Shown here one piece after another: positions 129 through 62,602 of a DNA stretch of 64,000 bases (position 1 is its first letter; every line of letters starts with the position of its first letter). The DNA is from Serinicoccus sediminis (lineage in GTDB: Bacteria; Actinomycetota; Actinomycetes; Actinomycetales; Dermatophilaceae). Location: assembly GCF_004153545.1 (NCBI RefSeq), contig NZ_SDVA01000003.1, forward strand, positions 1 to 64,000, in the 5' to 3' direction. The position numbers and the translations under genes were made by a program. A model generated the notes under the pieces. The model had not been told where the DNA came from. It saw only the letters and a list, made by a program, of their open reading frames with translations, and did no database searches.

Positions 129-2819
129 TCAGCCCTCGGCGAAGAGGCGCCGCACGACGCGTTCGGCGCTGTGCCCGTCGTCGAGGTGGTTGAACCGCTC
201 GACCCAGTCGTCGTAGCGCTGCGCGTACCGCTCGGTGTCGTCCATCGCCCGGATCGCGCGGACCACGTCGGCCTGCGTGCTCACGACCGGGCCCGGTGCC
301 TCCTGCTCCAGGTCGAAGTAGACGCCGCGCACGTCGTCGCGGTACTCGTCGAGGTCGGGGACGTAGAAGATCATCGGCCTGCGCGTGACCGAGAAGTCGA
401 ACATCACCGAGGAGTAGTCGGTGATCATCGCGTCCGCGGCGAGGAAGAGCTCGGTGATGCTCGGGTACGTGGTGACGTCGACCACGCCCGGCAGCTCCAC
501 GCTGCGACCGTGCCCGACGGTGCGCGAGTGTCCCCGCAGCAGGACGACGTAGCCCTCACCCAGCTCGGCGGTGAGCCGCTCCAGGTCGAGGAAGAGCACC
601 ATGCCCGCGGCGTTGTCCCGCCAGGTCGGGGCGTAGAGGACCGCCTTCTGGTCCGGGCGGATGCCCAGCCGCTCGCGGACCTCCTCGCCCGACCCGTCCA
701 CGAGCGCGTCGTTGCGGGGATATCCCTCCTCGTAGAACGTCCCCTCCCAGGCGTAGGCGCTGCGGAAGATCTCCGTGCTGTGGTGGTTCTGGCTGAGCAG
801 GATGTCCCACTTGTCCCGCTCGACCACGAGCGCGGCGCGGGTGGATGCCCCGGCCGTGGGGCGGTCCAGGCCGATCCGCTTGAACATCGACCCGTGCCAG
901 GTCTGGAGGACGGTCTGGAACGGCTGGGGGACGAACCTGCTGCGCAGCCAGTCGTTGGCGATGACGTAGCGCGAGCGGGCCCGGGCGTCGAACCACGCCT
1001 GCGTCCCCTCCACGACGGGGACCGCGCCCTCGGGCACCGGCACCGACAGGTCGGTCACCCCCCAGTAGCGCACCCAGTCCGGGTGCTCGCGGGCGATGAC
1101 GGCGTCGAGCGCGAAGGGGTTGCAGGTGGCGAGCCGGCCGTAGAAGGACTCCAGGTAGACCGAGCGCTGCGGCTCGTGCGGACCCAGGAGGTATGCCGCG
1201 TCCATCCGCCGCTGGTGGAAGGACCCGAGCTCGTCGGGCCCACGGGTGAGGCCCACGCGCAGCCGGAACGACCGGCCGCGGCCGGTCTCCCAGCGCAGCC
1301 GGGCCTCCTCCAGCGGGAGCTTCTCCGGCGTCCGGGCGACCAGGGCCGGCGCGGCCGCCACCCGCACCGTGCCACCGGCGGGATCGACCCCGCGCAGCAC
1401 GTAGCTGCCGACCCGGGGGAGCCGGGCCGGCCCGCCCCACTGTCCCTGCAGCAGGTCGGCCGAGGCGGACCAGGTGCCGTCCGGGGCGAGGTCCGCCTGG
1501 ACGGACAGGGTCTGCCGACGGCCGACGAGGCCGAGGGTCAGCCCGTCCGCCGTGCCGCCCCAGGTGCCGGTGAACCGCAGCCGCGGGTCGGGACCGGCAT
1601 CCAGGGTCGCGGTGGTCACCACCAGCGCGGTGCCGGTCTCCCCGACCAGCAGGCTGCCCCCGTCGCCGGAGTAGGCGAGCAGCCCGGAGCGGACGTCCTG
1701 CACCGGGGGCGCCTGGTCCAGCGGCGTGGCCACCACGTGCTCGGCCCCCTGCTCGTCGACCACCACGACGCGGTAGGTCTGCGCCACCAGCCGCTGGCCC
1801 TCGTGCACGTCACCCAAGGGGGCCGGCCGGGTGACGTCCGCCTGCTCGGCAGAGACCTCCTCGAGGTCGAGGTCGGTCGTGCGATCGAGGGCCCCCTGCG
1901 TGGCCGACTCGTCGGTCTCCAGCCCCACCAGGTCGTTCTCCAGCCCGGTCGTCGTCCACGTCTCGGGCACCTCGGCGGTCACCAGGACGCGACCCACGCG
2001 CTCCTGCACCGGCTCGGCCGTCATGGGACGGCGGGCGTCGCGCGACACCAGCTCGACCCGGGCGGCGCGCACCCCCCGCAGCTCGAGCTCGGCCCGGACC
2101 TGCCGGCCGTCGATCTCGACGCCGGTGGCCATGACCCGCGGACGGATCCGCTCGACGGACAGCCCGCGCCGACGGACCCAGCGGGGGACGAGCTGCGTCC
2201 CGTCCTCGACGGTGCGCGCGCCCAGGATGCGCGCCGACCCCGAGCGGTGACGCGACTTCAGGGTGCCGGAGGAGGCTCTCCCGTCGGCGTCCGTCACGCG
2301 CACGTGCACCCACCAGGGGCGCGGGTCCGTCCCGGCCAGGAGCGGGGTCAGGTCGAGGCGGGCGACGAAGCCGGTGTTGGCGTAGTCGAACTCGGCACGC
2401 CGGGCCAGCCCGTTGATCTCCATCTCGGTGACCGGGCGCACCTGCGCGCGGATCGGGTCGGGGTCGCCGCGACGCCGCAGCTCCACCTCGATCCGCGGCG
2501 CCTGCGGATGGCCGTAGCCCCGCTCGTAGGCCCAGCCGCTGATCTCGTAGGTCGCGCCCTCGCACCACCGCGCCGCCCACAGGGTGGCCACCCAGCCGAC
2601 CTGGCGCCGGGTCACCGTGTTGAGGGCGCGCCGGGTGGTCTGCCGACCCAGCACGTAGGCGCGCTGGAGCAGCACGTTGTCCGAGGAGCGGGCGGCCGTC
2701 AGCCGGCGGCGCAGCACCCGGCGCGCGCGGCGGCCGAGGTGGTAGCGCCCGTCGCGCACGGCGGCCCGCACCCGTGCCACGCCCGACGGCGGCGGTGCTG
2801 CAGGCAGCGGCGCCGCCAT
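129..2819 (-). CDS. CDP-glycerol:poly(glycerophosphate) glycerophosphotransferase family protein (TagF-like)
   Basis: About 896 residues. The last 370 form a CDP-glycerol glycerophosphotransferase domain (TagF/TagB type), which transfers polyol phosphate from CDP-polyol to a growing teichoic-acid-like chain at the inner membrane face. Visible family motifs are QTWHGS near residue 640, YAPTWRDN near 730 and TDYSSVMFDF near 800. The first 520 residues are probably a beta-rich region with repeated immunoglobulin-like blocks, often found in front of actinobacterial polymerases; its role is not clear from sequence. I chose the ATG at 2819 because it overlaps the TGA of the upstream gene (TGATG), giving translational coupling. 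A longer reading from 3041 would run inside that upstream gene. The exact polymer (glycerol, ribitol or other polyol phosphate) cannot be told. Confidence 0.85.
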   Translation of the reverse strand: MAAPLPAAPPPSGVARVRAAVRDGRYHLGRRARRVLRRRLTAARSSDNVLLQRAYVLGRQTTRRALNTVTRRQVGWVATLWAARWCEGATYEISGWAYERGYGHPQAPRIEVELRRRGDPDPIRAQVRPVTEMEINGLARRAEFDYANTGFVARLDLTPLLAGTDPRPWWVHVRVTDADGRASSGTLKSRHRSGSARILGARTVEDGTQLVPRWVRRRGLSVERIRPRVMATGVEIDGRQVRAELELRGVRAARVELVSRDARRPMTAEPVQERVGRVLVTAEVPETWTTTGLENDLVGLETDESATQGALDRTTDLDLEEVSAEQADVTRPAPLGDVHEGQRLVAQTYRVVVVDEQGAEHVVATPLDQAPPVQDVRSGLLAYSGDGGSLLVGETGTALVVTTATLDAGPDPRLRFTGTWGGTADGLTLGLVGRRQTLSVQADLAPDGTWSASADLLQGQWGGPARLPRVGSYVLRGVDPAGGTVRVAAAPALVARTPEKLPLEEARLRWETGRGRSFRLRVGLTRGPDELGSFHQRRMDAAYLLGPHEPQRSVYLESFYGRLATCNPFALDAVIAREHPDWVRYWGVTDLSVPVPEGAVPVVEGTQAWFDARARSRYVIANDWLRSRFVPQPFQTVLQTWHGSMFKRIGLDRPTAGASTRAALVVERDKWDILLSQNHHSTEIFRSAYAWEGTFYEEGYPRNDALVDGSGEEVRERLGIRPDQKAVLYAPTWRDNAAGMVLFLDLERLTAELGEGYVVLLRGHSRTVGHGRSVELPGVVDVTTYPSITELFLAADAMITDYSSVMFDFSVTRRPMIFYVPDLDEYRDDVRGVYFDLEQEAPGPVVSTQADVVRAIRAMDDTERYAQRYDDWVERFNHLDDGHSAERVVRRLFAEG

Positions 2820-5911: not shown

Positions 5912-6791
5912 CGAGGAAGCGGCCGTGGCGCGCCATCCGGGCCACGTCGCGCCAGCGCAGCCGGCGCCGGTCCTCGCCGGGCTCGAACGGGTCCTCCCGC
6001 CACCCGTCGCGCCAGCCCGCCCACCACGACTCCAGGCCGTCCCGCTGGGTCGTCCAGCGCACCAGCTGGATGCCGGTCCAGCTGGTGACGTAGGCCAAGG
6101 CCAGCGGCCGGGGGAGGTTGCGGCGGGCCAGCCAGACCCGGTTGCGGGCGTTCTTGTAGAAGTAGTCGGAGTGCCGACGCGGGTCGACGACGGGGTGCCC
6201 GGTGCGGAGGGAGGGGACGTAGCGCACCCGGTAGCCGGCCGCCCAGACCCGCCACGCCAGCTCGATGCCCTCGTGCGCGTAGAAGAAGATCCCCGGCCAG
6301 CCACCGGTCGCCTCGAACGCCTCGCGGCGCATGGCCACGGTCATCTCGACGACGCTGAAGACGTCGGCCTCGGTATGCCGCTCGCGCGCGCCCAGGCGTG
6401 GGATCCACCGCCCCGGCTGGGCCGCCTCCGCGGCGTCCGGGTCCTCGATGAGCGGCTGTACGAGACCGACGTCGGGGTGCTCCTCGAGGTACCGGGCGGT
6501 GCGCAGCAGCACGTCCTCGTCGATGAGCCAGGCGTCGTCGTCGAGGAAGAACAGGACCTCTCCCTCGACGTGCGGCACTCCGGCGTTGCGCCCGGCGGGG
6601 ATGCCCACGTTGGTGGGCAGGGCCAGGGTCTTGACCTGGTCCGGCAGCCCGGAGGGGTTCCAGGCGTTGCCCACCACGACGATGTCGAGCTCGACGCCGC
6701 GCTGGCGGAGCAGGGAGTCCAGGCCGCGGCGCAGCTCCTGCGGACGGCGGCCCTGGGTGAGCACCACGACGGCGAACCGGGGCGCGCTCAT
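5904..6791 (-). CDS. Glycosyltransferase family 2 protein
   Basis: About 295 residues. The N-terminus (FAVVVLTQGRRPQELRRGLDSL) and the FFLDDDAWL motif (DxD-like, metal and sugar-nucleotide binding) show an inverting GT-A fold of family 2, near the rhamnosyl/galactofuranosyl transferase type. GRNAGV and GGWPGIFFYAHEGIELAWRVW are typical acceptor-side motifs. It probably adds a sugar to a lipid-linked or wall polymer on the cytoplasmic face. The ATG at 6791 overlaps the stop of the upstream CDP-alcohol phosphotransferase gene (ATGA), so the two are translationally coupled. The 3' end overlaps the convergent TagE-like gene by 8 bp. Acceptor and donor cannot be named. Confidence 0.8.
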   Translation of the reverse strand: MSAPRFAVVVLTQGRRPQELRRGLDSLLRQRGVELDIVVVGNAWNPSGLPDQVKTLALPTNVGIPAGRNAGVPHVEGEVLFFLDDDAWLIDEDVLLRTARYLEEHPDVGLVQPLIEDPDAAEAAQPGRWIPRLGARERHTEADVFSVVEMTVAMRREAFEATGGWPGIFFYAHEGIELAWRVWAAGYRVRYVPSLRTGHPVVDPRRHSDYFYKNARNRVWLARRNLPRPLALAYVTSWTGIQLVRWTTQRDGLESWWAGWRDGWREDPFEPGEDRRRLRWRDVARMARHGRFLVI

Positions 6792-11081: not shown

Positions 11082-11786
11082 TCAGGCGGTGGGCACGGTG
11101 CCGACGGTGAGGCTGAGGTAGGCGGCCGCCCAGTGCGCGGCGAAGGCGGCCACGGTGAAGGCGTGGAAGACCTCGTGGAAGCCGAACCACCGCGGCGAGG
11201 GGTTCGGCCGGCGCAGGCCGTAGACGACCGCACCCAGGGTGTAGCACAGGCCGCCCAGGGCGATGAGGCCGACGACGAGCGGACCGCCCGTGCGCCACAT
11301 CGGCACCAGGAAGAAGACCGCCACCCAGCCCAGCGCGATGTAGACCCCCGTGTAGAGCCAGCGTGGTGCGCCGACCCAGAACACCCGGAAGAACACCCCG
11401 GCGACCGCCCCGGACCACACCACCCAGAGCAGGACCTGCCCCTGACCGGGCGGCAGGAGCATCACCGCGAACGGCGTGTAGGTGCCGGCGATGATGAGGA
11501 AGATGTTGGCGTGGTCCCAGCGCTTGAGGACCTGGGCGGTGCGGGGGCTCCAGCGGCCACGGTGGTAGAGCGCGGAGGTCCCGAAGAGCAGGACCCCGGT
11601 GACGGCGAACACCAGGGCGGCCAGCCGCGCGGCGGGCGTCGGTGCGAGGGCGACGAGGACGGCCCCGGCGGCCAGCGCGACCGGCACCATCCCCAGGTGC
11701 AGCCACCCGCGCAGGTGCGGCTTGACCTGGTCGACGACGGAGCCGAGCGCACCGTGGGTGGCGCTCGTGCGGGCGGGAAAGGGCAT
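11082..11786 (-). CDS. Hemolysin III / PAQR family membrane protein
   Basis: 234 residues with seven predicted transmembrane segments. The PAQR/HlyIII zinc-site histidines are visible: SALYHRGRW in the N-terminal half and FHEVFHAFTV plus HWAAAY near the C-terminus. The family includes eukaryotic progestin/adiponectin receptors and bacterial proteins linked to membrane lipid homeostasis; the substrate here is unknown. Its ATG at 11786 is preceded by GGAGG. A palindrome with flanking half-site overlaps its likely -10 (TAGGTT), pointing to a TetR-type repressor. It is divergent from the isoprenyl diphosphate synthase gene, as in mycobacteria (Rv1085c-Rv1086). Confidence 0.85.
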   Translation of the reverse strand: MPFPARTSATHGALGSVVDQVKPHLRGWLHLGMVPVALAAGAVLVALAPTPAARLAALVFAVTGVLLFGTSALYHRGRWSPRTAQVLKRWDHANIFLIIAGTYTPFAVMLLPPGQGQVLLWVVWSGAVAGVFFRVFWVGAPRWLYTGVYIALGWVAVFFLVPMWRTGGPLVVGLIALGGLCYTLGAVVYGLRRPNPSPRWFGFHEVFHAFTVAAFAAHWAAAYLSLTVGTVPTA

Positions 11787-11797
11787 ACCCTCCAGGC

Positions 11798-12668: not shown

Positions 12669-12767
12669 GCGACACGCCGCGCGCGCATGCGTGTGCGGCG
12701 CGGTCCCCGGCATACCGTCGGAGCAGACGCGGGGCACGCCCGCCCCGTCTCTCGGGAGGCCCACCAC

Positions 12768-15454: not shown

Positions 15455-15484
15455 TCCGCCCGCCGCACCCACGGCATACCTGAG

Positions 15485-16371: not shown

Positions 16372-16427
16372 CGGGCACCACGCCTCGCCGTCGCGACGCC
16401 GTGCGACAGGTATGCCCGTGGTGCCCG
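16372..16427. terminator. Inverted repeat between convergent DUF1206 gene and coaA
   Basis: CGGGCACCACG (16372-16382) and CGTGGTGCCCG (16417-16427) are perfect 11-bp arms with a 34-nt loop, in the gap between two convergent genes. This suits a bidirectional terminator, though the loop is long and no T-run is present. Confidence 0.45.
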
Positions 16428-21878: not shown

Positions 21879-21929
21879 ACCCCCAGTCTGCCCGACCGGG
21901 GGCTGCCGTCCCCTCGGCGCCGGCGTTGC

Positions 21930-22547: not shown

Positions 22548-24362
<1,815 letters not shown>

Positions 24363-25602: not shown

Positions 25603-25669
25603 TGTGGCGCCTGGTATGCCGCCTGCCGCCTGCGTCTGCCGCGCACCGCGCCGGCCCTGCCGCTCGGTG

Positions 25670-40883: not shown

Positions 40884-41836
<953 letters not shown>

Positions 41837-41926: not shown

Positions 41927-43360
41927 TCAGCTCAGCCGGACGACCACCGTCTTGGTCCGGGTGAAGCCGGCCAGGGCCTCGACGCCCTTCTCCCGGCCGT
42001 AGCCCGAGGCCTTGACGCCGCCGAAGGGCAGCTCGACCCCGCCGCCCGCACCGAAGGTGTTGACGAAGACCTGCCCGGCCTCCAGCGACCCCGCCAGCCG
42101 GTGCGCCCGGGACAGGTCGCGGGTCCACAGCGCGGCGATGAGCCCGTATGCCGTGCCGTTGGCGAGGGCGAGCGCCTCCGCCTCGTCCTGGAAGGGCAGG
42201 GTCACCAGCACCGGGCCGAAGACCTCCTCCTGGGCGATGGGGTCCTGCGGGTCGACCCCGTCGATGAGGGTCGGCAGCCAGAACGCGCCCCCGGCGAGGG
42301 TGCTGTCCTCGGGCGGGGCGCTGCCGCCGACGACGAGGTCACCGCTGGACACGCCCTCGACGTAGCCGCGCACCCGCTCCTGCTGGCGACGGGAGACCAG
42401 CGGCCCGAGGTCGGGGTCGTCCAGCCCCGCGCCGAGGGTGGTCGCCCGGAACCGGTCGGCGACGGCGGCGACCAGCTCCGCCCGGACGTCCTCGTGCACG
42501 ACGAGCCGGGACCCGGCGGAGCAGGTCTGCCCCGCGTTCTGCAGGATGCTGCGGGTGACGGCCTCGGCGGCGGCCTCCAGGTCGGCGTCGGGGAAGACGA
42601 CGTGGGCGGACTTGCCGCCCAGCTCGAGCACGGCGGGGACCACGCGCTCGGCGGCCGCGTGGGCGACCAGCCGCCCCGTCTCCGTGGACCCCACGAAGCC
42701 GAGGTGGGCGACCTGCGGGTGCGCCGTCAGCGCTGCGCCCGCCTCGGCGCCGAGCCCGGGCACCACGTTGACGACACCCTCCGGGAGCCCGGCCTCCAGC
42801 GCGAGGGCGGCCAGCGCCACCGCCGTCCGCGGCGTCTCGTCGGCCGGCTTGAGCACGACCGCGTTGCCGGTGGCGGTCGCGGCGGCGATCGACCGGGAGG
42901 CGAGCTGGAGGGGGTAGTTCCACGCCACGATGCAGCCGACGACGCCGTAGGGCTCGTGCCGGGTGTAGACGTGGGTGTCCGGGCCGAGCGGGATGGTGTC
43001 GCCGTAGGCGGCCTCCACGACCCGGCCGTAGTAGCGGAAGTAGCGCGCGGCGACGGTGGCGTCGGCCCGGGCCTGGGACAGCGGCTTGCCGGTGTCCTGG
43101 GACTCGGTACGGGCCAGCTGCTCGCGGTCCCGGTCGACGAGGGCGGCCAGCCGGGTGAGCGCGTCCGCCCGCTGCTCGGTCGGCGTGGCGGCCCACGCCG
43201 GCTGGGCGTGCGCGGCCGCCCGGACGGCCTGGTCCACCTCGGCGGCGCCCGCGCGGGCGACCTGCCCGATGACCGCACCGTCGGCCGGGTCCACGTTGTC
43301 GTAGGTCTGCGCGACCGGGAGGGAGGAGCCGGCGACGAGGGGGAGGGTGAGCTCGGGCAT
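41927..43360 (-). CDS. NAD(P)-dependent aldehyde dehydrogenase
   Basis: 477 residues, ALDH superfamily, betaine-aldehyde/gamma-aminobutyraldehyde-like. Signatures are GVVGCIVAWNYPLQLASRSIAAA, KPADETPRTA, GFVGSTETGRLVA (cofactor Gly loop), the catalytic Glu in VLELGGKSAHVVF and the nucleophile Cys in LQNAGQTCSAGSRLVV. The C-terminus (PFGGVKASGYGREKGVEAL) is typical. ATG at 43360 lies 6 nt behind a TACGGT box, so the mRNA may be leaderless, though GGGGG also precedes the ATG. It stands alone; the substrate cannot be named. Confidence 0.9.
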   Translation of the reverse strand: MPELTLPLVAGSSLPVAQTYDNVDPADGAVIGQVARAGAAEVDQAVRAAAHAQPAWAATPTEQRADALTRLAALVDRDREQLARTESQDTGKPLSQARADATVAARYFRYYGRVVEAAYGDTIPLGPDTHVYTRHEPYGVVGCIVAWNYPLQLASRSIAAATATGNAVVLKPADETPRTAVALAALALEAGLPEGVVNVVPGLGAEAGAALTAHPQVAHLGFVGSTETGRLVAHAAAERVVPAVLELGGKSAHVVFPDADLEAAAEAVTRSILQNAGQTCSAGSRLVVHEDVRAELVAAVADRFRATTLGAGLDDPDLGPLVSRRQQERVRGYVEGVSSGDLVVGGSAPPEDSTLAGGAFWLPTLIDGVDPQDPIAQEEVFGPVLVTLPFQDEAEALALANGTAYGLIAALWTRDLSRAHRLAGSLEAGQVFVNTFGAGGGVELPFGGVKASGYGREKGVEALAGFTRTKTVVVRLS

Positions 43361-43366
43361 ACCCCC

Positions 43367-44529: not shown

Positions 44530-46230
44530 TCACCCGTCGGCCCCGTCGAGGCCCGTGACCCGTCTGCGGCCGTCGGGCTCCCGGTGGGTGAGGCCACGGC
44601 CGTCGAGGTGCTCCAGCAGCGGGACCAGCACCCGGCGGCTGGTGCCGAGGAGGGCCCGGGCCTGCGCCGTGGTGAAGGGCTGCGGCAGCGACCGCAGCTG
44701 TCGCACCGTCCGGTCGACGGCGCCGGCCCCGAGGAGCACGTCACCGGGCAGCCGCAGCACGCCCGGTGCGCGCGCGGCGGCGGCGACCTCGCGCGGGCCG
44801 AGCGACAGCGCGGCCAGCTCGGGGCGGGAGGGGGAGTCCAGCGGGTCCGCGCGCAGGCGGCGCAGCAGGGCGGTCAGCCCTGGGGGCTCCTCCGTCGAGC
44901 CCTCGCGCACCAGGCGGCCGCCCTCCGGCGTCAACCCCGCCTCTGCCGCGGCGGCGCGCAGGGTGGCGAGGTCGGGCACACCCACCCGGCGGCGCAGCTC
45001 GGCGAGCGCCGGCTCCTCGCCCACCCACGGGGTGAGCGGGTCACGGGTGGCCCGCCGGGCCACCAGGCCGTCGACGGCCGCGCGCCACGCGTCGGCCGTC
45101 GCCGTCGAGACCTGCCGGCCCGCGACGACGGCGGTCCGACCCGCCGCCGCCTCGAGGGCCGAGGCCCGGAGGCGAGCGGCGCCGGTACGGCGCAGCGGTG
45201 GTGTCACGGCGTCCAGGACGAGGGCGCCGACCAACGAGCCCTCGCGGCCGGGCTCGCGCAGGATGAGCCGGTCACCCGGACCCAGCGGCAGCTCCGGCCC
45301 CCACGTGACGCGGGCGTAGGCCCCGCCCAGCGGACGCAGCCGGGCGGGGACCGCCGCGGTGCCGACGTGCGCGGTCACCTCCGCCGGCAACGTGTCCTCG
45401 TCGAGGAGCACGTCCACCGCGGTGCTCAGCCACCAGGGGTGGCCGGGGGAGAGCAGCGCCTGACCACGGCCGACCTCCGCCACGTCCACGCCGCGCAGGT
45501 TGAGCGCGACCCTGGCCGGGCCCGCGGCCTCCTCCACCGCACGGTCCCTGCTGTGCACCCCGCGCACACCCACCGACCGGGGCCGCCCGCCGGGGGTGGG
45601 GGTCAGCGTGAGCGTGTCGCCGGCGCGCACCCGCCCCGCGGGCAGCGTGCCGGTGACCACGGTCCCGGCCCCGCGCACGCTGAAGCTGCGGTCGACCCAC
45701 AGCCGGACGGGGGCGTCGGCGGGAGGCGGCGGCATGTGCCGGACGAGGTCGGCGATCTCGGTCCGCAGGAGGTCGATCCCCTCGCCGGTCCGCGCCGACA
45801 CCGCCACGGCCGGTATGCCGTCCAGGCTCGTCCCCCGCAGGTGCCCCCGGGCGCGGGCCAGGGTCGGTGCCGGGTCGGCGAGGTCGCTGCGGGTGACGAC
45901 GAGCACGCCGTGCCGCAGCCGCAGGGCGTGCACCGCCCGCAGGTGCTCCTCCGACTGGGCGCTCCACCCGCCGTCCGCGGCCACCACGAGCAGGACCCCG
46001 GCCGCGGGGCCGATGCCGCTGAGCATGTTGCCGATGAACCGTCGGTGCCCCGGGACGTCGACGAAGGCCACCGGACCGACCTCGGGGAGGGTGGTCCAGG
46101 CATACCCCAGGTCGAGGGTCAGACCACGGCGGCGCTCGGCCTCCCAGCGGTCCGGCTCCATGCCGGTGAGCGCCCGGACCAGCGCCGACTTGCCGTGGTC
46201 GACGTGGCCCGCGGTGGCGACGACGCTCAT
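44530..46230 (-). CDS. selB: Selenocysteine-specific elongation factor
   Basis: 566 residues. SelB carries Sec-tRNA to UGA codons marked by a SECIS hairpin. The GTPase begins ATAGHVDHGKSALVRALTG (G1), with GLTLDLGYAW (switch I), FVDVPGHRRFIGNML (G3) and VTRSDLADP in place of the NKxD of G4. Domains II and III follow, then C-terminal winged-helix repeats (for example QPFTTAQARALLGTSRRVLVPLLEHLDGRGL in motifs) that bind SECIS RNA. It is shorter than E. coli SelB (614). The ATG overlaps the selA stop (ATGA), so SelA and SelB are co-translated. Confidence 0.95.
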   Translation of the reverse strand: MSVVATAGHVDHGKSALVRALTGMEPDRWEAERRRGLTLDLGYAWTTLPEVGPVAFVDVPGHRRFIGNMLSGIGPAAGVLLVVAADGGWSAQSEEHLRAVHALRLRHGVLVVTRSDLADPAPTLARARGHLRGTSLDGIPAVAVSARTGEGIDLLRTEIADLVRHMPPPPADAPVRLWVDRSFSVRGAGTVVTGTLPAGRVRAGDTLTLTPTPGGRPRSVGVRGVHSRDRAVEEAAGPARVALNLRGVDVAEVGRGQALLSPGHPWWLSTAVDVLLDEDTLPAEVTAHVGTAAVPARLRPLGGAYARVTWGPELPLGPGDRLILREPGREGSLVGALVLDAVTPPLRRTGAARLRASALEAAAGRTAVVAGRQVSTATADAWRAAVDGLVARRATRDPLTPWVGEEPALAELRRRVGVPDLATLRAAAAEAGLTPEGGRLVREGSTEEPPGLTALLRRLRADPLDSPSRPELAALSLGPREVAAAARAPGVLRLPGDVLLGAGAVDRTVRQLRSLPQPFTTAQARALLGTSRRVLVPLLEHLDGRGLTHREPDGRRRVTGLDGADG

Positions 46231-47687
46231 CCCGCCGGGTGCCCGCCCGCCGCCGGTGACCCGCCCTCGCCGCCGAGGCCGACGCGGGCGGCCGCGGCGA
46301 GGACCGCTGCGAGCAGGAGGCCGTCCTGCGCGGGCGGCACGCAGCGCGGGTCCAGCAGGCAGCGCCCGTCGTGCACCCGGGCCAGGACAGCGGGGTCGCC
46401 GAGGCGCAGCGGACCGGCCAGGTCCTCCGGCAGCGCCACCGCCCACCCGGGCAGCGGCACACCCGGGGCGCCGCCACCACCGACCCGGCCGTCGTGCGGC
46501 ACGACCGTCGCCGCCAGGCCGTGCCGGGCCAGCACCCCCTCCAGCGCGTCGGCCCGCGCGCGCAGCCCGGCGGCCGGTGCCCGCCGGGCCACCGTGACCG
46601 GTACCGACCCCGGGTCGCGCAGGGTCGCTCCCAGGGCGGCCAGGGTGAGCTTGTCGACCCGCAGGGCCCGCGCCACCGGGTGTCGCCGCAGACGCTCCAC
46701 GAGGTCTGCGTCACCCAGCACGAGACCGGCCTGCGGGCCACCGAGCAGCTTGTCGGCGCTCGCGACGACCAGGTCGGCCCCGTCGCGCAGGGCGGAGCGG
46801 GCGTCCGGCTCGTCGGGCAGCGCCGGGTCCGGCGCGAGCAACCCGCTGCCGGTGTCGACGACCAGCGGCAGGCCCGCGCCCCGGGACACCTCGGCCAGCT
46901 CGGCGACCGGCACGTCGGAGGTGAAGCCGGTCACCCGGTAGTTGCCCGGGTGCACCTTGAGCAGGGCTGCCACGTCGGGTCCGTCGGCCGGTGCCGGGGC
47001 AGGCGACGCGCCGGCCGAGCCCGGGGCGGCCCGTCCGGCGAGGGCGCGCTCGTAGTCGGCCCGGTGCGTCCGGTTCGTGGTGCCGACCTCGTGCAGCCGG
47101 GCGCCGCTGGACTCCACGAGCTCGGTCAGCCGGAAGCCGTCGCCGATCTCGACGAGCTCGCCGCGGCTCACCACCACCTCGCGCCCCGCCGCCAGCGCGG
47201 TCATCGCGAGGAGCAGGGCGGCCGCCCCGTTGTTGACGACGAGGGCGGCCCCGGCCTCGGGCACCGCCTGCAGGAGCGCGTCCTGCACCGCGGCACCCCG
47301 GGGTCCGCGGCGGCCGGTCACCAGGTCCAGCTCGACGTCGGCGTAGCCGGCGGCGTCCAGGAGCGCGGCGGTGGCGGCCTCCCCCAGCGGGGCCCGGCCC
47401 AGGTTGGTGTGGACGACGACACCGGTGGCGTTGAGGACCGGCCGGGTGCACCCGGGGACGGTGCGGGCGCGCAGACGCGCGGCGAGGTCGTCGACGACCT
47501 GCGTCGGGGAGAGGTGGCCTCCGCGGGCCTGCCGCAGGACCTCCTGCGCGAGCGGCAGGGCGCGGGCGCGACCGAGCCGGGCGACGTCGTCGGCCACCGC
47601 GGGATGGGCGAGCACGACGTCGACGGGGGGTATGCCGCGGCGCGGGTCGGGGGGACCGGGTGCGGGTCGGGGAGGGGGATGGGCCAC
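46227..47687 (-). CDS. selA: L-seryl-tRNA(Sec) selenium transferase
   Basis: About 486 residues. SelA, a PLP enzyme, turns Ser-tRNA(Sec) into Sec-tRNA(Sec) with selenophosphate. Signatures: NATGVVVHTNLGRAPLG, YADVELDLVTGRRGPRG, VNNGAAALLLAM, GELVEIGDGFRL, EVGTTNRTHRADYE, and the PLP lysine in VVASADKLLGGPQAGLVLG. The GTG at 47687 is chosen because GGGGAGG lies 6 nt upstream and because the upstream tRNA-Sec gene ends 51 bp away. The N-terminal 30 residues are proline-rich. An Ala/Pro insertion (AGASPAPAPADG) lies near residue 225. Confidence 0.95.
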   Translation of the reverse strand: MAHPPPRPAPGPPDPRRGIPPVDVVLAHPAVADDVARLGRARALPLAQEVLRQARGGHLSPTQVVDDLAARLRARTVPGCTRPVLNATGVVVHTNLGRAPLGEAATAALLDAAGYADVELDLVTGRRGPRGAAVQDALLQAVPEAGAALVVNNGAAALLLAMTALAAGREVVVSRGELVEIGDGFRLTELVESSGARLHEVGTTNRTHRADYERALAGRAAPGSAGASPAPAPADGPDVAALLKVHPGNYRVTGFTSDVPVAELAEVSRGAGLPLVVDTGSGLLAPDPALPDEPDARSALRDGADLVVASADKLLGGPQAGLVLGDADLVERLRRHPVARALRVDKLTLAALGATLRDPGSVPVTVARRAPAAGLRARADALEGVLARHGLAATVVPHDGRVGGGGAPGVPLPGWAVALPEDLAGPLRLGDPAVLARVHDGRCLLDPRCVPPAQDGLLLAAVLAAAARVGLGGEGGSPAAGGHPAG

Positions 47688-48029: not shown

Positions 48030-49691
48030 GTGACCCCAGAACAGCTCGCTGCAGCCATCCATGCCGTGCTCACCGAGGCCGTCCGGGCCGGTGACCTGCC
48101 CCTGGCCGAGGGCGACCTGCCGGCCGCCGAGGCGCTGCGCGTGGAGCGGCCGCGGAGCCGCGACCACGGGGACTGGGCGAGCAACGTGGCGCTGCAGCTG
48201 GCCAAGCGCGCGGGTATGCCGCCGCGCGGGCTGGCCGAGGTCGTCGCCGCCGGTCTGGGCCGGGTCGACGGCGTGGCCGCGGTCGAGGTCGCCGGGCCGG
48301 GCTTCCTCAACATCACCCTGGACGCCGCGAGCGCCGGCGAGCTCGCCCGCACGGTCGTCGAGGGGGGCGCGGCCTACGGCCGCAACGACACCATGGCCGG
48401 GCGCACCATCAACCTGGAGTTCGTGTCGGCCAACCCCACCGGGCCGCTGCACATCGGGCACACCCGGTGGGCGGCCCTCGGGGACGCGCTGCACCGGCTG
48501 CTCGCCGCCAGCGGGGCCGACGTCACCGCGGAGCACTACACCAACGACGCCGGTGCGCAGACGATGCGCCTGGCCGGCTCGATCCTGGCCCGCGCCCGCG
48601 GCGAGCAGGTCCCCGAGGGCGGCTACGCCGGGGACTACGTCGACGCCCTGGCCGAGCAGGTGCTGCGGGCCCGCCCGGACCTGCTCTCGCTGCCCGAGCC
48701 GGAGGCCCTCGAGGTGTGCCGGGACACCGGCATGGCGCTGCAGGTCGCGGCGAACGAGCGGACGCTCACCGCCTTCCACGTGACCTTCGACGTGTGGTTC
48801 AGCGAGAAGAGCCTGCACGACGCGGGGGCGGTCGAGCAGGCCGTGGACCGGCTGCGCGGGCAGGGCCACGTCTTCGACGCCGACGGCGCGGTGTGGCTGC
48901 GCACGACCGACTTCGGTGACGACAAGGACCGGGTCCTCATCCGGGCCAACGGCGAGCCGACCTACTTCGCCGCCGACTGCGCCTACTACCTGTCCAAGAA
49001 GGACCGCGGGTTCACCGAGAAGGTCTACATGCTCGGGGCCGACCATCACGGCTACGTCGGGCGCCTCAAGGCCATCGCGGCCTGCGCCGGGGACGACCCG
49101 GAGACCAACATCGAGGTGCTCATCGGCCAGCTCATCAACATCAGCGGGGAGCGGATGGGCCGGCGCCGCGGCAACGCGGTCTACCTCTCCGACCTGCTGG
49201 AGTGGATCGGGGCGGACCCGATCCGCTACAGCCTGGGACGGTTCCCGGCGGACACCCCGCTGGACCTGGACGGCGAGGAGCTGCGCCGGCGCAGCAACGA
49301 CAACCCGGTCTTCTACGTCCAGTACGCCCACGCCCGCACCTGCAACGTCGCCCGGCTCGCCGGCGAGGACGGCGTGTGCCGCGAGGACGGCTTCGAGCCG
49401 GGGCTGCTGGAGCACCCCACCGAGTCGACGCTGCTCGCCGCCCTCGGCGACTTCCCCCGGGTCGTGGCCCAGGCCGCGCAGCTGCGGGAGCCGCACCGCG
49501 TCGCCCGCTACCTCGAGGGCCTGGCCAGCCACTTCCACAAGTGGTACGACGAGTGCCGGGTCCGGCCGATGAGCGCCGACGAGGAGATCACCGACCTGCA
49601 CCGCTCCCGGCTCTGGCTCAACGACGCCACCCGCCAGGTGCTGGCCAACGGCCTGGGCCTGCTCGGCGTGACCGCACCCGAGCGCATGTGA
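48030..49691 (+). CDS. argS: Arginyl-tRNA synthetase
   Basis: 553 residues, class I synthetase. An N-terminal additional domain (DHGDWASNVALQLAKRAG) recognises the tRNA D-loop. The ATP site is VSANPTGPLHIGHTRWAALGD (HIGH motif). The second class I motif is degenerate as usual in ArgRS: SGERMGRRRGN. The anticodon-binding DALR-type domain ends the protein (LANGLGLLGVTAPERM). Its GTG at 48030 is 7 nt from a TAGACT box and has no ribosome site. argS-hom-rho follows the actinobacterial order except that lysA is absent between argS and hom. Confidence 0.97.
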   Translation: MTPEQLAAAIHAVLTEAVRAGDLPLAEGDLPAAEALRVERPRSRDHGDWASNVALQLAKRAGMPPRGLAEVVAAGLGRVDGVAAVEVAGPGFLNITLDAASAGELARTVVEGGAAYGRNDTMAGRTINLEFVSANPTGPLHIGHTRWAALGDALHRLLAASGADVTAEHYTNDAGAQTMRLAGSILARARGEQVPEGGYAGDYVDALAEQVLRARPDLLSLPEPEALEVCRDTGMALQVAANERTLTAFHVTFDVWFSEKSLHDAGAVEQAVDRLRGQGHVFDADGAVWLRTTDFGDDKDRVLIRANGEPTYFAADCAYYLSKKDRGFTEKVYMLGADHHGYVGRLKAIAACAGDDPETNIEVLIGQLINISGERMGRRRGNAVYLSDLLEWIGADPIRYSLGRFPADTPLDLDGEELRRRSNDNPVFYVQYAHARTCNVARLAGEDGVCREDGFEPGLLEHPTESTLLAALGDFPRVVAQAAQLREPHRVARYLEGLASHFHKWYDECRVRPMSADEEITDLHRSRLWLNDATRQVLANGLGLLGVTAPERM

Positions 49692-49750: not shown

Positions 49751-50734
49751 GTGTCCTCTCCCGCCGCCTCGTCCGTCCTGCGCGTCGCCCTGCTCGGCGG
49801 CGGCACCGTGGGGGCCGCCGTCGCCCGCCGGCTGCTGCAGCACGCCGACCGGTATGCCGACCAGCTGGGTCGTCGCCCCGAGCTCACCGGCGTGGCGGTG
49901 CGCGACACCACCCGGGCGCGGGACGGCATACCCCCCGCGCTGCTCACCACCGACGCCGCCGCGCTCGTCGGCGACCCGGCGACCGACGTGGTCGTCGAGG
50001 TCATGGGCGGGCTCGAGCCCGCCGGGTCCCTCGTCGAGACGGCCCTGCGGCGCGGGGCCCAGGTGGTCACGGCCAACAAGCAGCTCGTCGCGCGGCGCGG
50101 CGAGGAGCTGCACGCGATCGCCCGCGAGCACGGGGCGGGCCTGCACTACGAGGCGGCCGTCATGGCGGCGGTGCCGGTCCTCGCCGTGGTCCGTGAGTCG
50201 ATGGCCGGTGACGAGATCACCGCTCTCCGGGGGATCGTCAACGGGTCCACCAACTACGTGCTGGACCTCGTGGCCCGCGAGGGAGTGCCGTTCGCCGACG
50301 CGGTGCGCCAGGCGGGCGAGCTGGGCTACCTCGAGGCGGATCCCACCGAGGACCTCGAGGGGGTGGACGCCGCCGCGAAGGTCGCGATCCTGGCCCGGAC
50401 GGCCTGGGGCACCTCGGTGCCGCTCGACGCGGTCGAGACCCAGGGCATCTCCGGCCTCACCGACGCCGACTTCGCGGCCGCCGCCGGCAGGGGCGAGGTG
50501 CTCAAGCTCGTGGCGGAGGCACGACGCGGTGGCGACGGCCGGGTCCACGCCCGGGTGGCGCCCACCGCCCTCCCGGCCACCGACCCGTTGGCCCAGGCCC
50601 GGGGCGGCACCAACGTGGTGGAGATCGACGCGGTGCTCGCGGGCACGGTGCGGCTGGTCGGCGCCGGCGCCGGCGGCGACGAGACGGCCTCGGCCGTCCT
50701 CGGGGACGTGGTCCGGGCGGCCCGCCCCAGGTGA
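49751..50734 (+). CDS. hom: Homoserine dehydrogenase without C-terminal ACT domain
   Basis: 327 residues. It reduces aspartate semialdehyde to homoserine for threonine and methionine. Signatures: LRVALLGGGTVGAAVAR (NAD(P) loop), VVEVMGGLEPA, VVTANKQLVAR, IVNGSTNYVLD, and EADPTEDLEGVDAAAKVAILA with the catalytic Lys/Asp. The chain ends at GAGAGGDETASAVLGDVVRAA, the end of the catalytic domain; the regulatory ACT domain of about 100 residues found in corynebacterial Hom is missing. GTG at 49751 follows GGAG. thrC and thrB, which usually follow hom, are also absent here; rho comes next. Confidence 0.93.
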   Translation: MSSPAASSVLRVALLGGGTVGAAVARRLLQHADRYADQLGRRPELTGVAVRDTTRARDGIPPALLTTDAAALVGDPATDVVVEVMGGLEPAGSLVETALRRGAQVVTANKQLVARRGEELHAIAREHGAGLHYEAAVMAAVPVLAVVRESMAGDEITALRGIVNGSTNYVLDLVAREGVPFADAVRQAGELGYLEADPTEDLEGVDAAAKVAILARTAWGTSVPLDAVETQGISGLTDADFAAAAGRGEVLKLVAEARRGGDGRVHARVAPTALPATDPLAQARGGTNVVEIDAVLAGTVRLVGAGAGGDETASAVLGDVVRAARPR

Positions 50735-53430: not shown

Positions 53431-54510
53431 GTGTTCGACTCCGCCCGGCCCCTGCTCGAGGAGCACGCCGACATCGAGCAGCGGCTCGCCGACCCCGCGG
53501 TGCACGGCGACCCGGCGGCCCTGCGCAGGCTCAACACGAGGTATGCCGCGCTCACGCCCACCGTGACGGCGTACCGGCGGTGGGAGACGGCCGCGGGGGA
53601 CCTGGAGGCGGCGCGCGAGCTCGCCGCCGAGGACGAGGGCTTCGCGCAGGAGCTCCCGGGCCTGCAGGCCACGGTCGAGGAGGCCGCCGCGCACCTGCGT
53701 CGCCAGCTCGTGCCCCGCGACCCCGACGACGACCGCGACGTCATCCTCGAGGTCAAGGCCGGTGAGGGGGGCGAGGAGTCCGCGCTCTTCGCGGGTGACC
53801 TCCTGCGGATGTACGTCCGCTACGCCGAGCGGCGCGGGTGGCGCACCGAGCTGCTCGACGCCACCCCCTCCGACCTCGGCGGCTACAAGGAGGCCCGGGT
53901 GTCGGTCACGGCCACCGGCACGCCGGCGGCGGGAGAGGCCCCGTGGGCGCGGCTGAAGTACGAGGGCGGCGTCCACCGGGTGCAGCGGGTGCCCGTCACC
54001 GAGAGCCAGGGCCGGGTCCACACCTCGGCGGCCGGCGTCCTCGTCATGCCGGACATCGACGACCCGGCCGAGGTCGAGCTGGACCCGAACGACCTCAAGG
54101 TCGACGTCTTCCGCTCCTCCGGTCCCGGCGGTCAGTCGGTCAACACCACCGACTCCGCCGTGCGCATCACGCACCTGCCGACCGGCCTCGTCGTCTCCTG
54201 CCAGAACGAGAAGAGCCAGCTGCAGAACAAGGAGTCGGCGCTGCGGGTGCTGCGGGCGCGGCTGCACCAGATCGCGGTGGAGGAGGCCGAGGAGGCCGCC
54301 AGCGCGGCCCGGCGCAGCCAGATCCGCACGGTGGACCGCAGCGAGCGGATCCGCACCTACAACTTCGGTGAGAACCGCGTCGCCGACCACCGCACCGGCT
54401 TCAAGGCCTACAACCTGGACCAGGTCCTGGACGGCGACCTCGACCCGGTGGTGCAGTCGGCGGTGGACGCCGACGAGGCCGCTCGGCTGGCCTCGGCCGG
54501 GGAGCGATGA
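53431..54510 (+). CDS. prfA: Peptide chain release factor 1
   Basis: 359 residues. RF1 reads UAA and UAG stops and triggers peptide release. The catalytic GGQ is in [44 protein letters not shown] and the domain-2 region [20 protein letters not shown] hold the stop-recognition part. The GTG at 53431 follows AGGAGGA. prmC, whose product methylates the Gln of GGQ, begins 80 bp downstream, a functional pairing widely conserved. Confidence 0.97.
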
Positions 54511-54589: not shown

Positions 54590-55441
54590 GTGAGCGTCGA
54601 CGAGCTGGTCCGCGCGGCGGCCCGTCGCCTGCGCGAGGCGGGGGTGCTCAGCCCGGAGGTGGACGCCGAGCTGCTGCTCGCGCACGCCATGGGTCTGGAC
54701 CGGGCAGGCCTGCGCCGTGCCCGGGTCCTGCGCGAGCAGGTGGGCCCGGCCGTCCACGGCGCCTTCCTCGAGCTGGTGGTGCGCCGCGCCGACCGGGTGC
54801 CGCTGCAGCACCTCACCGGCACCGCGTGGTTCGCCGGGCTGGAGCTGGCCGTCGGCCCCGGGGTCTTCGTGCCGCGCCCGGAGACCGAGACGCTCGTACG
54901 CCTGGCCCTGGCGACGCTGCAGGACCTCACCTCACCCACGGTGGTGGACCTGTGCACGGGCAGCGGGGCCATCGCCCTGGCGCTGTCGCACCAGCGGCCG
55001 GACGCCCGGGTCGGCGCGGTCGAGCTGTCGCAGGAGGCCTACCGGTATGCCGTGGCCAACCGCGCGCGCACCGGGCTCGAGGTCGACCTGCGGCTCGGCG
55101 CGGCCCAGGAGTCCTTCGAGGACTGGCGCGGTCGGGTGGACCTGGTCGTGAGCAACCCTCCCTACATCCCGCCCGACGCCGTGCCCGTGGACCCCGAGGT
55201 CCGCGACCACGACCCGGGGCTGGCGCTCTACGGCGGCGGCACCGACGGGCTGGAGCTGCCGGGCCTGCTCGCCAGCCGGGCGGGGCAGCTGCTGCGCCCC
55301 GGCGGGGCCCTGCTCATGGAGCACGCGGACTCCCAGTCGGCCTCCGTGGTCGGGCTGCTCGAGCACACCGGCTGGCGGGACGTCCGGGACCACGAGGACC
55401 TCGCCGGCCGGCCGCGGGTGGTGGCCGCGACCCGCGCCTGA
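54590..55441 (+). CDS. prmC: Release factor glutamine N5-methyltransferase
   Basis: About 283 residues. PrmC methylates the GGQ glutamine of RF1 and RF2 with S-adenosylmethionine. The N-terminal helical domain is followed by the Rossmann methyltransferase: [26 protein letters not shown] (SAM motif I) and the catalytic [11 protein letters not shown] (NPPY). The GTG at 54590 gives the start [13 protein letters not shown]; an in-frame ATG at 54566 has no ribosome site. A strong hairpin follows the stop. Confidence 0.94.
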
Positions 55442-57942: not shown

Positions 57943-58009
57943 CCGACCACAGGGCCGGGCGGCGGCATACCCGACCGCGACCGACCGCCGGGAGGGGTGA
58001 CACAGACCA

Positions 58010-60843: not shown

Positions 60844-60867
60844 GACCTCAACAGAAAGAGAACTGAC

Positions 60868-61083
60868 GTGTCTGGTGACATCACCCTCCTCGGCTACGGC
60901 GTGTCCACCATCGGCCCCGCGATCGCCGTGGGTCTGATCTTCGCGGCCTACATCAACGGCGTCGCCCGCCAGCCCGAGGCGCAGGGCAAGCTGCAGCCGA
61001 TCGCCATCCTCGGCTTCGCGCTCGCGGAGGCGCTGGCCATCTTCGGCCTGGTGCTCTTCTTCATCGCGTTCTTCGTCGGCTGA
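60868..61083 (+). CDS. atpE: ATP synthase F0 subunit c
   Basis: 71 residues, two helices joined by the polar loop ARQPEAQGK. The proton-carrying acid is Glu in [15 protein letters not shown]. The first helix has the Gly/Ala-rich packing face ([17 protein letters not shown]). As in mycobacteria this is the target site class of diarylquinolines; no judgement on sensitivity is possible here. The GTG at 60868 follows AAAGAGAA. A hairpin precedes the gene. Confidence 0.97.
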
Positions 61084-61160
61084 CCTGCCCTGCCCTTCCC
61101 CAGACCCGTCCGCTGCACCGGTCCCACCGGTGACGGACACGCACACGTGAGGAGCCGCTC

Positions 61161-61781: not shown

Positions 61782-62602
61782 TGGACAGCGCCTTCCGCCG
61801 GTCCTACCACGGGGCCCGTGAGGGTCTGGAGCAGGTGCTCGAGCACGAGGGCGGCTCCGTCGACCCGGCCCGGCTCGGCGACCAGGTCTGGGCCGTGGCC
61901 CGCCTCGTGGACGGCAACAAGGTGCTCGCCCGCACCCTCGCCGACCCCTCGCGCGAGGGCGAGGAGCGGGCGGCCGTCGCCGAGCGCCTGCTCACCGGAA
62001 AGATCGGGGACGGGGCGCTGCACGTCGTCAAGGCCGTCGTGGCGCAGCGCTGGTCCGAGACCGGCGACGTCGCCACCGCCCTGGAGCGGCTGGCGGTCGA
62101 GGCGCAGCTCGTGCACGCGCACCGGCACGACCGGCTGGGCCAGGTGGAGGACGAGCTGTTCCGGTTCTCCCGGATCATCCGGTCCGCCCCCGAGCTGCAG
62201 GCCGCCCTGGCCGACCGCCGTGCGCCGGCCTCGGCCAAGCGCTCGCTCGTCGAGCGCCTGCTGGCGGTCAAGTCGGCGCCCGAGACGGTGACCCTGGCCG
62301 CCCAGGCGGCCGTGGGGGTCCGCGGCAGCCGCGTCGAGCGGACGCTCGCGGCATACCTGGAGCAGGCCGCCGAGGTCCAGGACCAGGTCACCGCGGTCGT
62401 CACCACCGCCGTGCCGCTGTCCGAGGAGCAGGAGCAGACCCTGCGCGACACGCTCAGCCGGCAGTACTCCCGCACCGTCCACACCAACGTGGTCGTCGAC
62501 CCCGACGTCGTCGGCGGCATCCGGGTCGAGATCGGCGACGAGGTCATCGACGGCACCGTCAGCCACCGCCTCGACCAGGCCCGCCGCCTCATGGCCGGCT
62601 GA
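61781..62602 (+). CDS. atpH: ATP synthase F1 subunit delta
   Basis: 273 residues. Delta links the peripheral stalk to the top of the alpha3-beta3 head. The C-terminal OSCP signature is VVDPDVVGGIRVEIGDEVIDGTVSHRLDQARR in parts; the N-terminal six-helix domain shows VARLVDGNKVLARTLADPSREG. Length is typical of actinobacterial delta without the b-fusion seen in mycobacteria (where atpH carries an extra b domain). The ATG overlaps the atpF stop. Confidence 0.95.
   Translation: MDSAFRRSYHGAREGLEQVLEHEGGSVDPARLGDQVWAVARLVDGNKVLARTLADPSREGEERAAVAERLLTGKIGDGALHVVKAVVAQRWSETGDVATALERLAVEAQLVHAHRHDRLGQVEDELFRFSRIIRSAPELQAALADRRAPASAKRSLVERLLAVKSAPETVTLAAQAAVGVRGSRVERTLAAYLEQAAEVQDQVTAVVTTAVPLSEEQEQTLRDTLSRQYSRTVHTNVVVDPDVVGGIRVEIGDEVIDGTVSHRLDQARRLMAG

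Follow-up and report, generated by a model that had tools for sequence, protein, structure and literature searches.

An over-represented octamer with dialects in Actinobacteria, and its candidate function as a DNA-uptake-sequence-like self tag

The window, the whole 64-kb stretch of DNA that was analyzed, contains 28 exact copies of the octamer GGTATGCC. The plus-strand copies number 16, and lie at 1190..1197, 6372..6379, 16409..16416, 21351..21358, 22965..22972, 24203..24210, 25613..25620, 28284..28291, 29816..29823, 37677..37684, 45812..45819, 47629..47636, 48213..48220, 49851..49858, 53540..53547 and 55044..55051. The 12 copies on the minus strand are found at 11782..11789, 12709..12716, 15473..15480, 21874..21881, 35412..35419, 38054..38061, 41603..41610, 43356..43363, 46099..46106, 49925..49932, 57964..57971 and 62350..62357. 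These numbers agree exactly with the original prediction, which had also put the GC content at 72%; the window is slightly richer, at 73.5%. Frame analysis places two of the copies in the same long gene (35989-39936), where that beginning at 37677 is antisense and that beginning at 38054 is read in the sense direction as the codons GGT-ATG-CC. The copies beginning at 49851 and 49925 are separated by 74 bases and have opposite orientations. Genes were predicted using a simple GC-frame picker written for this analysis. In the form used for the codon control it places 24 of the 28 sites fully within genes, and a stricter picker places 17 there. All six frame and orientation classes are used by GGTATGCC.

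Markov models of orders 1, 2 and 3 predict 0.75, 1.05 and 0.94 copies respectively on both strands of the window. At orders 4, 5 and 6 the expectation becomes 14.3, 27.9 and 27.7. These orders are blind to the excess because in 64 kb most occurrences of the sub-words come from the motif, and the maximum-order model, which shows no excess, was dropped as a test of the window. The genome as a whole (3.55 Mb) has 1363 copies (698 and 665 on the two strands), compared with 18 (10 and 8) for the reversed word used as a control. A 424-kb sample, drawn from this genome with the prophage excluded, has 146 copies, where an order-3 model with the sites masked gives 2.7, i.e. an excess of about 50-fold. 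The genome-wide count is thus well removed from expectation, and GGTATGCC is far commoner than chance in this genome.

The word might nevertheless be generated by chance, codon usage or amino acid composition, and as a control we shuffled synonymous codons inside the predicted genes, using 100 shuffles. The window has 24 copies in this analysis against 2.5 ± 1.4 after shuffling (maximum 6). The corresponding values are 133 against 10.4 ± 3.0 (maximum 17) for 464 kb of the same genome, and 230 against 19.7 ± 3.8 (maximum 32) for 460 kb of a congener, G007. Codon usage does make a contribution to the related word GGATGCCG, the raw count of which is partly codon-driven in Microbacterium aoyamense (shuffled expectation 7.8 of 36). 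There is no such support for GGTATGCC, where shuffling explains only the small fractions given above and the reversed word is rare genome-wide. Synonymous shuffling therefore refutes chance or codon usage as the source of the word, and we give that explanation essentially no credence. The original prediction held that selection acts on the DNA and not on the protein; the excess that persists in codon and amino acid context, together with the use of all six frames, supports selection or drive at the level of DNA. The density of sites is 0.65 per kb outside predicted genes and 0.31 inside them in the genome of the window, and 0.95 and 0.54 per kb respectively in G007.

The fuller form of the word is GGTATGCCG(T/C). 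At sites in the genome of the window there is G at +8 in 125 of 157 cases and T at +9 in 70 of 157, so that the ends are graded, and enrichment of single-mismatch forms occurs mainly at the end positions. The word differs from its own reverse complement, and is therefore not palindromic. Beyond the two 3′ bases the flanks exhibit weak single-position biases within ±30 bases, with no shared long flanks of the kind expected for a REP-type mobile repeat and no evident AT-rich tracts. Neighboring sites fall within 60 bases of each other in 1 of 150 pairs in the genome of the window and 8 of 242 in G007, and not all of these are inverted. Frequent close inverted, terminator-like pairs are therefore not seen in either genome. 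Their rarity counts against an uptake sequence; such pairs are a common form of DUS and USS elements, though not a defining one.

Relatives carry dialects of GGTATGCC that differ in one or two bases. GTATGCCG, GGATGCCG and GTACGCCG are enriched in other genera of the family of the window and in a second, Microbacteriaceae-like family, and the first two of these reach up to thousands of copies. GGATGCCG is present in 3816 and 3838 copies in genomes of genus g34, in 4480, 3619, 2195 and 2099 copies in g40 and in 3949 copies in g73, where the controls lie in the range 200-439. After codon shuffling of 20-kb samples there remains an excess of GGATGCCG (16 against 2.5 expected in G201, and 12 against 3.9 in G073) and of GTACGCCG (17 against 3.8 in G059). 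Both dialects are robust, and share an inner core with GGTATGCC. GGTAGACC is tentatively a dialect in G065, with 590 copies against 173 genome-wide, and 7 against 2.6 after codon shuffling. GTAGGCCG was unconvincing in G071, with 12 of its 13 copies in one frame and repeats in the locus. In L164 the top words are explained by tandem repeats, and the GTAGGCCG dialect derived from it was therefore withdrawn. In the Microbacteriaceae-like family f19, GKATGCCG is at least four times as frequent as its reversed control in 31 of 33 genomes, with a maximum of 4927 against 296, and it is also enriched in named Microbacteriaceae. Genus g52 has only 15-40 copies of GGTATGCC in all 16 of its genomes. Both loss and switching of dialect occur inside one family.

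Strand symmetry was analyzed in 460 kb of G007, with replication arcs inferred only from the GC skew. There are 128 copies of GGTATGCC on the G-rich strand and 137 on the C-rich strand (p = 0.62; 95% interval for the G-rich share 0.42-0.54), and so no leading-strand bias in this sample. This bears on two roles suggested in the original prediction. The first is a Chi-like signal, modulating a RecBCD/AddAB-type nuclease at DNA ends with a recognition that drifts between genera. Chi sites are likewise short, frequent, species-specific octamer-type words, and GGTATGCC is short, non-palindromic, very frequent and lineage-specific. However, known Chi sites are biased toward the leading strand, and GGTATGCC is not. 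Of five phages that infect Microbacteriaceae, two contain more GGATGCCG than codon use explains. The excess in two Microbacterium phages would fit the protection of linear DNA, but left/right polarity of the sites is not seen in the two enriched phages. In addition, some genera, g52 and g2 among them, lack the original word on the scale of the genome. Over-representation as such is shared with Chi of Escherichia coli, for which 1008 copies are given against 151 expected at zero order (PMC1939737, in part). Given the lack of strand bias a Chi-like role is disfavored, and we regard it as improbable. The second role, that of a nucleoid or segregation site, is disfavored by the same symmetry, provided that such a site were polar.

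The word is conserved. In three congeners of about 86% identity the GGTATGCC sites are intact in 22 of 31, 24 of 31 and 24 of 30 cases, compared with 31 of 102, 37 of 105 and 37 of 99 for composition-matched octamers. Across species, GGTATGCC therefore stays intact about twice as often as matched words (Fisher p from 1e-4 to 5e-5). Acquired DNA behaves differently. A 40.4-kb prophage has 2 sites where 15.5 are expected (P = 2.5e-5), and the word is also scarce in part of a second prophage. A small accessory part outside the prophage has none in 6.9 kb, which alone is not significant (P = 0.10). The core genome is rich in GGTATGCC, and acquired DNA is poor in it.

Two further explanations must be weighed against these data. 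The word could be a self mark read in the cytoplasm, recognized there by an orphan methyltransferase, by a nucleoid-associated protein or by a nuclease that distinguishes self from non-self. It would then be comparable to HIP1, and kept by intracellular selection. This would account for the strand symmetry, the chromosome-wide spread and the enrichment in some phages. HIP1 of cyanobacteria, a palindromic octamer, can be extremely abundant, with 5648 copies (PMC1939737, in part). Like GGTATGCC, it is a short word that is over-represented to an extreme degree and whose role is debated; the difference is that GGTATGCC is non-palindromic and has dialects. Moreover a non-palindromic word of 9-10 bases with graded ends is long for a methyltransferase site, and for a maintenance function it is less expected that a single family should show both losses and changes of dialect. 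We consider a cytoplasmic mark unlikely. Alternatively, a mutation or repair bias such as context-dependent mismatch repair might create the word without selection, and this would affect every DNA molecule in the cell, that of some phages included. Yet it is hard to obtain in this way a 9-10-base context with an excess of about 50-fold, and equally hard to obtain the dialects, the scarcity in prophage and a conservation above that of matched words. We judge such a bias very improbable.

Among the four roles offered in the original prediction, that of a DNA-uptake-type sequence gives the best fit, because of the dialects, the strand symmetry, the conservation, the scarcity in prophage and the presence of competence genes. 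On balance GGTATGCC probably serves natural competence (ComEA/ComEC and Tad-type pili) as a self tag resembling a DNA uptake sequence, one that exists in several dialects among Actinobacteria. Sequence-specific DNA uptake is documented in Neisseriaceae and Pasteurellaceae (parts of PMC3630211, PMC2397512, PMC12616744 and PMC6776037). The Neisseriaceae DUS is a short non-palindromic word that occurs thousands of times, in either orientation and in genic and intergenic DNA; it is conserved, rare in recently acquired genes, and has dialects that follow lineage with a common inner core (PMC3630211, PMC2397512). The actinobacterial word resembles the DUS, for which ComP is the receptor, in abundance, use of both orientations, occurrence in genes and between them, conservation, scarcity in acquired DNA and dialects. 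It differs in sequence, in phylum, in the association with Tad/Flp-type genes without a type IVa marker, and in having few inverted pairs. The Pasteurellaceae USS has two dialects, and there are USS-rich and USS-poor phages (PMC12616744, PMC6776037, in part). Here too the statistical picture is similar, including dialects and word-rich and word-poor phages, but the sequence, phylum and pilus type are different and the AT-rich flanking tracts are not evident.

The closest model for the machinery is an actinobacterium, Micrococcus luteus, which undergoes natural transformation through ComEA/ComEC and tad genes in a manner dependent on the Flp/Tad pilus; the portions of its transformation literature that we drew upon contain no report of an uptake sequence (PMC4322843, PMC6370729). 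The family of the window carries the same kinds of genes. ComEA and ComEC matches occur in 20 of 20 genomes sampled, and the Tad ATPase in 184 of 186 family genomes. PilM, a marker of type IVa pili, is found in only 7 of 186, and type IVa pili were therefore rejected as the machinery. Competent cells of the lineage would preferentially bind and import word-carrying DNA. Judging from M. luteus and the genes present, they would probably do so by means of a putative surface receptor of Tad/Flp-type pili and ComEA, with entry of the strand via ComEC. Since the imported fragments would recombine with the chromosome, word-carrying alleles would spread, and the word would accumulate wherever coding tolerates it.

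Some observations on these genes are mixed or run against the uptake reading. Being nearly universal, the TadA-type ATPase was rejected as a presence/absence marker of the receptor, and no gene that tracks the word was found among four T2SSE ATPase groups or the tad neighborhoods, where clusters were compared by eye. The congener with fewest copies (G022, with 38) has a frameshifted comEC, but G018 and G010 have low counts with comEC apparently intact, so that comEC integrity as the sole cause of copy number holds only in part. Word-poor genomes such as those of genus g52 retain tad, and G032 has a full-length comEC match although no word was found. Conversely, comEC is split by an insert of about 40 kb in the genome of the window, where the insert is the prophage, and in G002, yet both are word-rich; the uptake reading therefore needs such insertions to be recent or reversible. 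The GGATGCCG-enriched phages also weigh on this side.

Taken jointly, we see an even balance for and against the larger proposition that Actinobacteria have, apparently independently of Neisseriaceae and Pasteurellaceae, evolved a dialect-bearing, sequence-tagged uptake of self DNA in at least two families, that of the window and the Microbacteriaceae-like one, in which Tad-type pili together with ComEA/ComEC take the place of type IVa pili. Among the papers listed from the open-licence PubMed Central literature without preprints we found no report of this word, or of an actinobacterial or Microbacteriaceae uptake sequence, which leaves its absence in print unproven. If true, there would be an independent origin in Gram-positive Actinobacteria with a different pilus, and a new receptor to seek, for which the natural dialects would serve as a built-in mutational series. 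A large group of soil and plant bacteria would then count as capable of natural transformation, and DNA acceptable to them could be designed by a simple rule. Changes of dialect would partly impede the passage of genes from one genus to another, and the system would be relevant to the question of whether drive, or selection for sex with kin, gives rise to uptake sequences. Should the octamer prove to be a self mark of another kind, its thousands of copies and its dialects in two families would still call for explanation. Words of the form GTACG(A/C/G)CG are in excess in 20-kb samples of Nocardioidaceae/Kribbella, and the putative uptake system may perhaps extend to this group.

The octamer GGTATGCC is present exactly 28 times in the window, 16 copies on the forward strand and 12 on the reverse, in agreement with the original prediction. 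About one copy is expected there on both strands summed (Markov order 1–3). The window lies on contig C36 of the source genome G000 (3.55 Mb, 97 contigs), where the word occurs 698 + 665 times genome-wide, compared with 10 + 8 for the reversed word used as control. A Kgd-like protein of G000 shares 56–68% identity, over the best segments, with named actinobacteria of other families, and the genome may belong to the Dermatophilaceae/Intrasporangiaceae. We have also permuted synonymous codons within predicted genes, leaving proteins and codon usage unchanged. This reduced the number of copies from 24 to 2.5 ± 1.4 in the window, from 133 to 10.4 ± 3.0 in a 464-kb sample of G000, and from 230 to 19.7 ± 3.8 in 460 kb of G007, a word-rich single-contig congener. 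From the genome-wide counts and the shuffling results, the abundance is therefore far from a Markov-corrected expectation and is not lost when codon context is taken into account, so that the predicted enrichment stands.

Of 157 sites in G000, 125 have G directly after the octamer; at the position after that, 70 have T and 49 have C. For G007 (263 sites) the corresponding figures are 147 with G and 77 with T. The working form of the word is GGTATGCCG(T/C). Beyond +9 the significant signal consists of weak single-position biases, many spaced three bases apart as expected of coding DNA, and in forms with one mismatch the enrichment is chiefly at the end positions. The flanks have no long shared sequence; the sites are therefore not copies of a mobile repeat. 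All six classes of frame and orientation are occupied, the rarest being that encoding Val-Cys (10/133 sites in G000, 12/230 in G007). Site density per kb is about twofold higher outside predicted genes than within them (G000, 0.65 vs 0.31; G007, 0.95 vs 0.54), although the gene calls are our own simple ones and the coding status of any single site is provisional. Neighboring pairs less than 60 bases apart are rare (1/150 in G000, 8/242 in G007). Strand preference was analyzed in 23 pieces (460 kb) of G007, with replication arcs and origin position inferred from GC skew. None was found: the G-rich strand carries 128 sites and the C-rich strand 137 (p = 0.62; 95% interval of the G-rich fraction, 0.42–0.54). 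A role as a Chi-like signal ranks third among the readings considered, and we think it distinctly unlikely.

The sites are strongly conserved. In the region around comEC, aligned between G000 and three congeners at 86–87% identity with gapped windows left out, 22/31, 24/31 and 24/30 of the alignable word sites are intact. For control octamers of the same strong/weak pattern the corresponding values are 31/102, 37/105 and 37/99 (Fisher p = 1e-4, 6e-5 and 5e-5). Where a site exists in one genome only, the other differs by a single base in 37 of 50 cases (summed over three overlapping comparisons), and thus point changes create and destroy sites. Of the 99.6 kb of contig C46 outside the prophage described below, 92.7 kb align with one or more relatives and carry 32 sites; the remaining 6.9 kb carry none (P = 0.10 taken alone). 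Two 20-kb stretches of G007, the richest congener as described, at C1:2300001-2320000 (L216) and C1:2900001-2920000 (L220), have one and two copies where ~12 are expected from its average. They are candidates for recently acquired islands.

We have surveyed 186 genomes of 53 genera in the family of the window, f1. Copies of GGTATGCC range from 6 (G124, G149) to 2228 (G176, with 14 for the reversed control); other rich genomes are G007 (2180), G166 (2106) and G105 (1877). All 12 genomes of genus g2 have 13–30 copies and all 16 of g52 have 15–40. Among the 31 genomes of the window's genus the minimum is 38 copies in G022, corresponding to 11.5 per Mb, and the next lowest is 70 per Mb. In 22 genomes of other families we counted 3 to 111 copies.

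Samples of 6–100 kb from further genera were scanned for enriched neighbors of the word, and several of the word-poor genera sampled use a related word instead. GGATGCCG occurs 3816 and 3838 times in genomes of genus g34, 4480, 3619, 2195 and 2099 times in g40 and 3949 times in g73, as well as 1336 times in G031 and 1210 in G178; the reversed controls are 200–439. Two of the g40 genomes have both words (G092 with 523 GGTATGCC and 2195 GGATGCCG, G093 with 508 and 2099), whereas G090 and G091 of the same genus are rich chiefly in GGATGCCG, possibly a switch of dialect under way. After codon shuffling GGATGCCG remains in excess in G201 (16 vs 2.5) and G073 (12 vs 3.9), as does GTACGCCG in G059 (17 vs 3.8). 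GGTAGACC is tentatively a dialect of G065, with 590 copies vs 173 reversed, 117–196 in four congeners, and 7 vs 2.6 against shuffled codons. A dialect GTAGGCCG in G071 was withdrawn, since 12 of its 13 genic copies have a common frame, in a repetitive locus. A further form, C/AGTATGCCG, is also in use in G010 and G015 and escapes the octamer count. Samples of G022, G058, G108, G124, G125, G137, G140 and G205 yielded no word, but at 20–85 kb each they are too small to prove its absence.

In 396 genomes sampled from the order we used GKATGCCG, which covers both main dialects. In a second family, f19, its ratio to the reversed control is 4 or higher in 31 of 33 genomes, with a maximum of 4927 vs 296 (G276); the exceptions are G250 (2.5) and G416 (3.6). 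Outside f1 and f19 a single ratio above 4 was seen (G249, 5.3). Named loci suggest that f19 is the Microbacteriaceae. On codon shuffling GGATGCCG is in excess in Microbacterium aoyamense (36 vs 7.8), a Microbacteriaceae MAG (23 vs 5.7) and Agromyces (14 vs 5.7), as are GGATGCC in a Rhodoglobus MAG (33 vs 9.8) and GGATGCTG in Microbacterium sp. AG1240 (11 vs 1.6). GGATGCCG has no Markov enrichment in M. stercoris (5/2.8), Galbitalea (3/2.3) and two Leucobacter loci (4/2.9, 3/2.4), and in Pseudarthrobacter it is at the shuffled expectation (3 vs 3.3). When all octamers were scanned without bias in loci of at least 13 kb, the motif family ranks top in L061, L027, L028, L133, L134, L161, L179, L206 and phage Lesiram, and also in L013 of Nocardioides glacieisoli. 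It is likewise top in the Kribbella loci L043 and L047, in the forms GTACGGCG (21 vs 2.4) and GTACGCCG. In some loci (Leucobacter L025 and L030, phage Warren) words from outside this family reach comparable scores. Synonymous shuffling is exceeded by GTACGGCG, GTACGACG and GTACGCCG in L043 (Kribbella antibiotica), L047 (Kribbella sandramycini) and L013; the Kribbella and Nocardioides words may be further dialects outside the order, or residual codon-pair effects. Among AT-containing octamers in L025 and L030, the highest scores over shuffled codons belong to words around GATCCGGCG and GCGGGATC.

The word content of phages cuts both ways. The prophage of G000 has 2 copies where 15.5 are predicted from the genome average (P = 2.5e-5), and ~20 kb sampled from an insert in G002 has 1 where ~5 are expected. 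We compared GGATGCCG with the codon expectation in five phages that infect Microbacteriaceae. Three are at this level, Cicada (10 vs 7.1), Min1 (4 vs 5.7) and Parvaparticeps (4 vs 6.2), but the Microbacterium phages Warren (L249, 21 vs 8.0 ± 2.1) and Lesiram (L250, 21 vs 6.2 ± 1.7), whose host is M. foliorum, exceed it. This excess, ~3x codon expectation, is possibly the signature of a long stay in word-rich hosts. The second-ranked reading, that the word is a mark of self within the cell, seems to us rather unlikely.

Matches to ComEA and ComEC were found in all 20 genomes sampled, and ComEC (PF03772) in 55 of 58 relatives, the exceptions being G019, G023 and G045. Of the 186 family genomes, 184 have a Tad-type ATPase and 7 have PilM, a marker of type IVa pili. 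In the tad cluster of G000 (contig C66) a short DUF4244 protein is encoded where the Flp pilin would be. Transformation of the actinobacterium Micrococcus luteus is described as requiring tad genes (PMC4322843). Comparison of T2SSE ATPase groups and tad clusters revealed no gene whose presence tracks the word; such a comparison is blind to a universal pilin of altered specificity. The comEC gene of G000 is interrupted by the 40.4-kb prophage (C46:68531-108976, loci L107-L109), which encodes a large serine integrase, SPP1-type portal, capsid and terminase. Placed on the intact gene of G012, the two junctions of this prophage come to within two bases of each other. An insert of ~40 kb splits comEC of G002 at the same place (C1, about 1161200-1201300). 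ComEC of G015 has an in-frame gap of ~148 residues, and that of G022, the poorest congener, is frameshifted near a contig end, where an assembly error is possible. When the 31 genomes of the genus are ordered by word density (1 = poorest), those with defective or missing comEC, G022, G023, G015 and G019, take places 1, 3, 5 and 6, species not being independent data. Yet ComEC matches are present in G018 and G010 (places 2 and 4), and G000 and G002, with their split gene, are at 25 and 21. The pattern agrees with slow decay of the word after loss and recent insertion of the prophages, without proving it. Prophages and transformation are known to be in conflict, and a phage that integrates where it silences DNA uptake would be in line with this.

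We consider that the word is most likely a self tag for DNA uptake, and hold this with moderate confidence. We prefer this reading because the combination of features matches reports on the DNA uptake sequence (DUS) of Neisseria and the uptake signal sequence (USS) of Pasteurellaceae. The features that match (PMC2397512, PMC3630211, PMC12616744) are strand symmetry, a 9-10-base word with graded ends, permissive placement, strong conservation of the sites, a low frequency in newly arrived DNA, dialects built on a common core, and competence genes. The word probably works like DUS and USS, to which it is likened but not assigned. Sequence-specific uptake is described, in the parts of the literature seen, for Neisseriaceae and Pasteurellaceae; for Actinobacteria or Microbacteriaceae no report on point was found in open-licence PubMed Central papers. 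The last five bases of the window motif GGTATGCCGT are the first five of the Neisseria DUS GCCGTCTGAA. The longer AT-form of the latter overlaps the motif by seven bases. The Neisseria core CTG is not common to both, and the overlap is therefore probably a coincidence.
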